Source: a virus. Taken from it: 29,009 nt of DNA. Every line of letters starts with the position of its first letter. The stretch's first letter is position 1. The notes under the pieces are model-generated. The model saw only the letters and a program-made list of their open reading frames with translations. It searched no databases and was not told where the DNA came from. The translations under genes were made by a program, and so were the position numbers. Location: the IMG/VR virus record IMGVR_UViG_3300030090_004646, positions 1-29,009 of that record, one strand, 5' to 3'. Of the stretch, positions 4,594 to 5,195 are shown piece by piece.

Positions 4594-4806
4594 CTAGAAT
4601 GGTGCTACTGGTAAAGCAGGACCAGTCGCATCAGGCATCATATCTGGAAGAGATCCAGTAACAGATCCTAACGCTGCTTCTGTAATTTTTGATTTGACGC
4701 TATCGATAATCGCATCCTTGCGTATGAATACGTAACCACCAAGACCAATAACGGTGAGAGATACAATACCACTTGCAATAGCGATCCCATTAATCAGTTT
4801 TTGCAT
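4594..4806 (-). CDS. Small single-anchor membrane protein (70 aa)
   Basis: A hydrophobic N-terminal helix (about residues 5-29, ending in GGYVFIRK) leads to a short polar tail rich in Pro, Asp and Ala (PDMMPDATGPALPVAPF). GAGG lies about 11 bases ahead of the ATG. The anchor resembles that of the next gene downstream (hydrophobic run, then a Y-x-RK border), so the pair may be related or cooperate. I recognise no family. Confidence 0.6.
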   Translation of the reverse strand: MQKLINGIAIASGIVSLTVIGLGGYVFIRKDAIIDSVKSKITEAALGSVTGSLPDMMPDATGPALPVAPF

Positions 4807-4909
4807 CGTTCATTTCCTCATAAGCATGCTTCATTATATAGGCTATAACAATTGTAACTGATATTACCAAAATTAGTACCATAATATTCACAGAGTGAAC
4901 TACAGTCAT
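4790..4909 (-). CDS. Tiny membrane protein (39 aa)
   Basis: An open frame of 39 codons: a short start, a strongly hydrophobic helix (VNIMVLILVISVTIVIAYIM, residues 7-26) and a charged tail (KHAYEEMNDAKTD). Its ATG overlaps the stop of the upstream NdhS-like gene as ATGA, and its 3' end overlaps the next ATG by 17 bases. A full membrane helix plus this coupling makes it likely to be translated. Topology (helix with a short acidic tail) recalls small subunits of membrane complexes, but no match can be named. Confidence 0.6.
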   Translation of the reverse strand: MTVVHSVNIMVLILVISVTIVIAYIMKHAYEEMNDAKTD

Positions 4910-5115
4910 TTTTTCTTTTTAGGTGGATAGTATAGGAAACCTTCGGTTTGTTCTGAAAGTTCAGAGAGTTTAAAAGTAATCATTTTATCCCAAGGAGTAT
5001 GACTATCCATTAAAACTGCTGCTAACTTACCTTGTATTCTCTGAACACACCCAACATATCCTCTGTAGATTGAGTTTTCATCAGTAACTTTAACAGTAGA
5101 ACCTGGTAAAATCAT
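4906..5115 (-). CDS. NdhS-like protein (DUF3252, SH3-like)
   Basis: A 69-residue protein. MILPGSTVKVTDENSIYRGY, VQRIQGKLAAVL and WDKMITFKLSELS line up, as I remember the family, with cyanobacterial DUF3252/NdhS (Synechocystis Ssl0352, plant CRR31). That small SH3-like subunit helps NDH-1 accept electrons from ferredoxin for cyclic electron flow. The length fits the cyanobacterial protein; the lysine-rich tail PPKKKK is an unusual end. It is joined to both neighbours by ATGA overlaps, in a unit of small membrane proteins. If it binds host NDH-1 it could redirect electrons during infection. The resemblance is seen in the sequence; the family name rests on memory and the function is inference. 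Confidence 0.65.
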   Translation of the reverse strand: MILPGSTVKVTDENSIYRGYVGCVQRIQGKLAAVLMDSHTPWDKMITFKLSELSEQTEGFLYYPPKKKK

Positions 5116-5195
5116 TTTTTAAATACACCTACCTTTGCTAATAAGTAAATAGATAAAGTTGTCCAGAAGACAACTTCCAATCCAATGTTATTCAT
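5112..5195 (-). CDS. Tiny single-helix membrane protein (27 aa)
   Basis: A 27-codon frame: MNNIGLEVVFWTTLSIYLLA, then KVGVFKK. It is one hydrophobic helix with a short polar start and basic end, the size and shape of small photosystem or cytochrome b6f subunits. Its stop overlaps the NdhS-like gene's ATG as ATGA, and it begins three bases after the preceding gene's stop. Its position beside an NdhS-like gene is suggestive, but I cannot identify it. Confidence 0.5.
   Translation of the reverse strand: MNNIGLEVVFWTTLSIYLLAKVGVFKK

Follow-up and report, generated by a model that had tools for sequence, protein, structure and literature searches.

The stretch of DNA analysed here (the window) comprises 29,009 nucleotides (positions 1 to 29,009 of IMG/VR record IMGVR_UViG_3300030090_004646) and is a fragment of a T4-like cyanophage, in which the genes for ribonucleotide reductase, primase and sugar metabolism have their matches in Synechococcus phages. 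One end carries high-light-inducible protein genes and a peroxiredoxin gene; the former lie in succession on the minus strand (1034-1481), the third ORF there (1034-1186) matching the first part of phrog_20629 alone, such that it may be shortened or overlap another frame. At 4906..5115 on the minus strand an ORF with an ATG start and a TGA stop encodes a 69-residue protein (MILPGSTVKVTDENSIYRGYVGCVQRIQGKLAAVLMDSHTPWDKMITFKLSELSEQTEGFLYYPPKKKK), which Pfam and an AlphaFold2 model identify as NdhS (PF11623); the plus-strand reading of the same interval was rejected, having stop codons throughout. The ndhS start codon overlaps, in an ATGA arrangement, the TGA of an ORF (5112..5195, minus strand) for a 27-residue, single-transmembrane microprotein (MNNIGLEVVFWTTLSIYLLAKVGVFKK), and the ndhS stop codon overlaps the ATG of a putative single-transmembrane ORF of 39 residues (4790..4909, minus strand), which resembles phrog_814 (function not assigned).

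The microprotein matches phrog_36745 (function not assigned; E 2.5e-18), with no useful match in the PDB or Pfam. Its relatives also occur in many cyanophages in which ndhS was not found, and lie apart from ndhS in phage P-HM2, so the peptide is probably not a part of NDH, and we rejected it as an NDH-1 subunit. Similar peptides are present in 43 phage records, from both cyanomyoviruses and podoviruses, where they adjoin genes as diverse as those for gp7, transaldolase and a cytidylyltransferase. In other environmental contigs (L003, L036, L044, L055 and L066, among others) the same ATGA-coupled place directly upstream of ndhS is taken by other, unrelated-looking tiny membrane peptides of 50-57 residues (phrog_36349) with arginine/lysine-rich ends.

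The first-pass annotation proposed that the window encodes an NdhS-like (DUF3252) protein in a phage, and this was borne out. The Pfam NdhS family matched at 64.9 bits (E 5e-18; curated cut-off 27 bits), the alignment placing residues 2-53 of the protein on profile positions 1-51 of 52, that is, over the whole domain; no second Pfam family, PsaE (PSI subunit IV) included, appeared at E<=10. The match to phrog_30695 (function not assigned) had an E value of 3.9e-21, and phmmer against the PDB retrieved Ssl0352 (2jz2, E 1.6e-10) and Tlr0636 (E 6e-10). With a host-only profile, made from 108 cellular NdhS sequences and no phage ones, the protein scored 74.1 bits, compared with a top score of 7.1 bits for 2000 shuffled-residue controls, and none of the other reading frames of the window approached it. 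The AlphaFold2 model (pLDDT 87) is a five-stranded, SH3-like barrel, for which the best solved match was NdhS itself (3c4s_A; Z 10.8, 46% identity, 57 aligned residues, 1.3 A), followed by 2jz2, 6khi_S and 6hum_S. KOW and PsaE domains have the same SH3-like fold, but the PsaE structures ranked below NdhS, and neither Pfam nor the fold comparison returned a better family. The ORF is thus confirmed as encoding a phage homologue of NdhS (DUF3252/PF11623). The NdhS core, i.e. ILPG, Y17, G22, QR, L35, W42 and K44, is kept in the phage proteins; the motif WDK.ITF.LSEL, initially taken as the end of the protein, is in fact followed by a tail of 16 residues.

Comparison with cyanobacterial NdhS (Ssl0352 of Synechocystis 6803 and Tlr0636 of T. 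elongatus; PF11623) reveals a common SH3-like fold and shared ILPG, Y17, G22-[VI]-QR, L35 and W-[DE]-K, the domains being 46-49% identical. Identity to the Prochlorococcus and Synechococcus proteins is about 60%; these share S15, G19, Y20 and F/C23 with the window protein, but end just after the domain and have the loop FEGGN, many Prochlorococcus proteins also having an N-terminal extension such as MELSTKP. Residue 15 is Ser in 96/96 phage and 80/80 picocyanobacterial NdhS, whereas it is Asp in 28/28 other cyanobacteria, and at G19, Y20 and F/C23 phage NdhS likewise sides with the marine picocyanobacteria against other cyanobacteria. On the evidence of these residues, phage NdhS is judged to descend from marine picocyanobacterial NdhS. 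In a domain tree that included the loop, the phage proteins formed one clade on the picocyanobacterial side (support 100/99); without the loop columns the phage group required up to three changes and the grouping was less secure, so a single gain by phages is not upheld as proven, although one origin of phage ndhS appears likely.

Within the window protein the loop preceding the invariant Trp reads M36-D-S-H-T-P41 (codons 4993..5010, minus strand), replacing the cellular F-E-G-G-N and being one residue longer. FEGGN precedes this Trp in all the distinct genome-derived cellular NdhS (113 in one set, 108 in another), the form in the cyanobacterial proteins compared above being F-E-G-[GN]-N or F-E-N-G-N, whereas viral NdhS nearly always have [FM]-D-x-x-[ST]-P, or otherwise a longer loop ending in Pro, with one Ser-for-Pro exception. 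FEGGN was found in none of the viral NdhS read, and even a host query that included EGGNWDKL retrieved viral-type loops alone from IMG/VR. The window protein (MDSHTP) therefore lies outside the cellular-type FEGGN subtype, which is defined by observation here and is no part of the Pfam definition of NdhS; we read the difference as the mark of a phage subtype and not as exclusion from the family. Given that a loop invariant in the cellular sequences examined is replaced in all the viral ones, the contacts with partner subunits could have been altered instead of preserved. Position 21, which is polar in cells (K/T/R/E/Q), is mostly Val in phage. Still longer loops, FDDINGCP and FDDVCGCP, with one or two cysteines, are present in the NdhS of two contigs (L415 and L418).

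The phage-type C-terminal tail, S54-EQTEGFLYYPPKKKK69 (codons 4909..4956, minus strand), has a basic end. In 83/83 picocyanobacterial NdhS only two residues come after the domain and the basic tail is absent, whereas such a tail is present in 28/30 other (non-picocyanobacterial) cyanobacteria. Of the phage sequences, 77/105 have a tail whose final six residues include two or more K/R. Phage NdhS differs from the cyanobacterial protein not only in being phage-encoded but in the sequence of the tail, which varies between phage clades. The dN/dS values were 0.09 for the whole gene in the window's clade, 0.06 for the P-HM clade and 0.08 for Prochlorococcus, and the domain is under purifying selection. 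The value for the tail was 0.06 in the window's clade, where both loop and tail are conserved, and a loose 0.63 in a third phage clade; together with the differences among clades, the latter value implies that some phage NdhS can do without a particular tail. Being host-derived, set among T4-like neighbours and under purifying selection, the window ndhS is a cyanophage auxiliary metabolic gene.

A survey of cyanophages, as the first-pass annotation had suggested, revealed that the gene is widespread. One profile search identified 246 IMG/VR stretches encoding a relative, compared with 145 and 111 for scans with a single sequence. In a set of 50,697 phage records, ndhS was present solely in P-HM1, P-HM2 and MED4-213 (six accessions), all of which are phages of Prochlorococcus MED4; matches to Klebsiella phages at E 0.05 were taken as noise. 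The P-HM1 and MED4-213 genes are annotated as 'hypothetical' (PHM1_008 and CPMG_00105, respectively), and P-HM2 has, at 176218-176415, an intact ndhS ORF of 65 residues with a TTG start that is missing from its GenBank record (GU075905.1). PHM2_223 overlaps the 3' end of that ORF in another frame, the bulk of it being covered by no CDS. All three copies are intact 65-residue ORFs that, with phrog_30695, are of the same family and phage type as the window protein, but the P-HM1-type proteins form a clade apart from that of the window (52% identity to the window protein). The two types occur together, one copy of each about 1 kb from the other, in contigs L060 and L072. Most often ndhS has the genes for gp55 (late sigma) and gp47 as its neighbours, the overlaps being of 4 bases; the many other positions observed imply that the gene has moved within these phage genomes.

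In plants, Arg-193 of Arabidopsis NdhS is involved in ferredoxin binding. The initial assignment of NdhS to the ferredoxin-docking site of NDH-1 has to be amended, since such a role is disputed: in ferredoxin-bound T. elongatus NDH-1L, NdhS lies in a groove of NdhI and holds NdhV, making no contact with ferredoxin (PMC7021789), from which it is about 25 A distant (PMC7021789, PMC6992706). An alternative proposal is that NdhS lysines near the flexible C-terminus form a 'fly-casting' tail that fishes for ferredoxin (PMC13249358). NdhS is loosely associated with NDH-1, its occupancy being restored by addition in vitro (PMC6992706), and its loss lowers NDH cyclic flow (PMC7021789). Since host NdhS is loosely bound and can be added back, its exchange for phage NdhS is physically plausible.

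The most likely reading, in which we have moderate confidence, is that phage NdhS takes the seat of host NdhS on NDH-1 and there sustains or raises ferredoxin-driven cyclic flow, and hence ATP supply. The gene, acquired from a marine picocyanobacterium, would be translated during infection, ATGA-coupled in an operon, and its product, predicted to fold as an SH3-like NdhS domain, would occupy the NdhI groove at the NDH-1 tip, a site in which the host's own subunit is only loosely bound, and act as a foothold for host-supplied NdhV, while the added basic tail may help to draw in reduced ferredoxin. The outcome would be that ferredoxin-to-plastoquinone (cyclic) flow is kept up or raised, yielding ATP without NADPH; in this scheme NADPH would be the business of the pentose phosphate pathway together with phage CP12. 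Host genomes encode PF11210/DUF2996, which we take to be NdhV, and a phage version of this partner (PF11210) was found in 0/14 phage records searched. P-HM1 and MED4-213 possess, in addition, an AOX/PTOX-family gene. The transcriptome paper on P-HM2-infected MED4 treats the balance of linear and cyclic flow in infected cells as an open question, and its infection model, in which FNR declines, CP12 expression is high and cyclic flow through NDH provides ATP, names in its legend only other classes of P-HM2 gene (HLIPs, PSII, PPP and nucleotide synthesis) (PMC5082946). The first-pass suggestion that a phage NdhS could bias cyclic electron flow fits this published model and is plausible. A bolder version, which we advance only tentatively, is that the phage protein is a subunit purpose-built to capture ferredoxin, with a basic fly-casting tail missing in marine picocyanobacteria and a new loop altering its grip on NDH-1, such that infection would rewire host complex I to cyclic, ATP-only flow; some phages (L060, L072) might then have two subunits for different forms of NDH-1.

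The change in a loop that is invariant in cells leaves room for an opposite, rather unlikely effect, in which phage NdhS fills the host site but with a loop unable to hold NdhV or position NdhI, so that NDH-1 activity drops and reduced ferredoxin is spared for the bilin reductase PebS, NADPH and nucleotide reduction. The replacement of the loop in every viral sequence and the predominance of Val at the otherwise polar position 21 are consistent with such a dominant-negative action, as is the location of ndhS two genes from pebS, which encodes a ferredoxin user, in P-HM1 and MED4-213. However, strong selection maintains the greater part of the NdhS core as well as a tail suited to ferredoxin capture, the infection transcriptome has been interpreted as favouring cyclic flow (PMC5082946), and phages carry other NDH-1 subunits (PMC10452541).

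It is unlikely that phage NdhS, in the manner of phage psbA, simply makes up for the loss of its host counterpart after the shut-off of host expression, the kinetics staying unchanged and the loop and tail being neutral marks of lineage. The purifying regime is the same as for host NdhS, and one ndhS copy was present per host genome read, as such replacement would have it; yet the loop and tail are clade-wide and, in the window's clade, constrained, and two ndhS paralogues within single contigs suggest more than replacement. Action away from the complex, with a basic SH3-like protein binding ferredoxin and steering it to another acceptor, is very unlikely: the frequency of basic tails in phage sequences, the occurrence of NdhS among several SH3-like proteins of ferredoxin-handling complexes (PsaE being among the fold matches) and a ferredoxin gene on two environmental ndhS contigs are in its favour, but it is the NdhS core that is conserved, beyond charge alone. 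Host contamination, a chance ORF or another SH3-like family are refuted, because, although KOW and PsaE share the fold, both identities were rejected for want of a sequence match and for lower fold rank, NdhS being the sole Pfam match, because no shuffled sequence approached the observed score, and because T4-like genes flank ndhS in many contigs, three cultured phages have the gene, and viral copies, even those retrieved with the host-type query, lack the cellular loop.

Cyanophage ndhI, ndhD and ndhP have already been described and, like phage ndhS, encode subunits of the same host complex (PMC10452541); they are, however, electron-carrying, membrane or assembly subunits, whereas NdhS is a small peripheral subunit beside the ferredoxin site. 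TIGR00403 (ndhI) was found in 0/15 of the ndhS phage records searched. We found no report of phage ndhS in the open-access literature searched, and subscription papers may already have mentioned a homologue of Ssl0352 in phages. What appears to be new is thus an additional NDH-1 subunit among those borne by phages, in a distinct phage form. Many marine cyanobacterial viruses carry their own remodelled version of NdhS, a minor component of the machinery that recycles electrons for ATP in photosynthesis. It has been overlooked even in well-studied laboratory phages, so the powering of infected cells becomes directly testable; the intact, unannotated gene of P-HM2 means that this can be done now, as the reads are available and both phage and host are in culture. 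Given its recurrence in hundreds of environmental contigs, ndhS may influence how energy flows in infected marine cells. In some contigs (L068, L190-L192, L194, L198, L199, L204, L210, L213 and L216) ndhS adjoins a NifU-like gene for 80 residues, similar to the nifU annotated in P-SSM2, and a link of ndhS to Fe-S clusters is possible.
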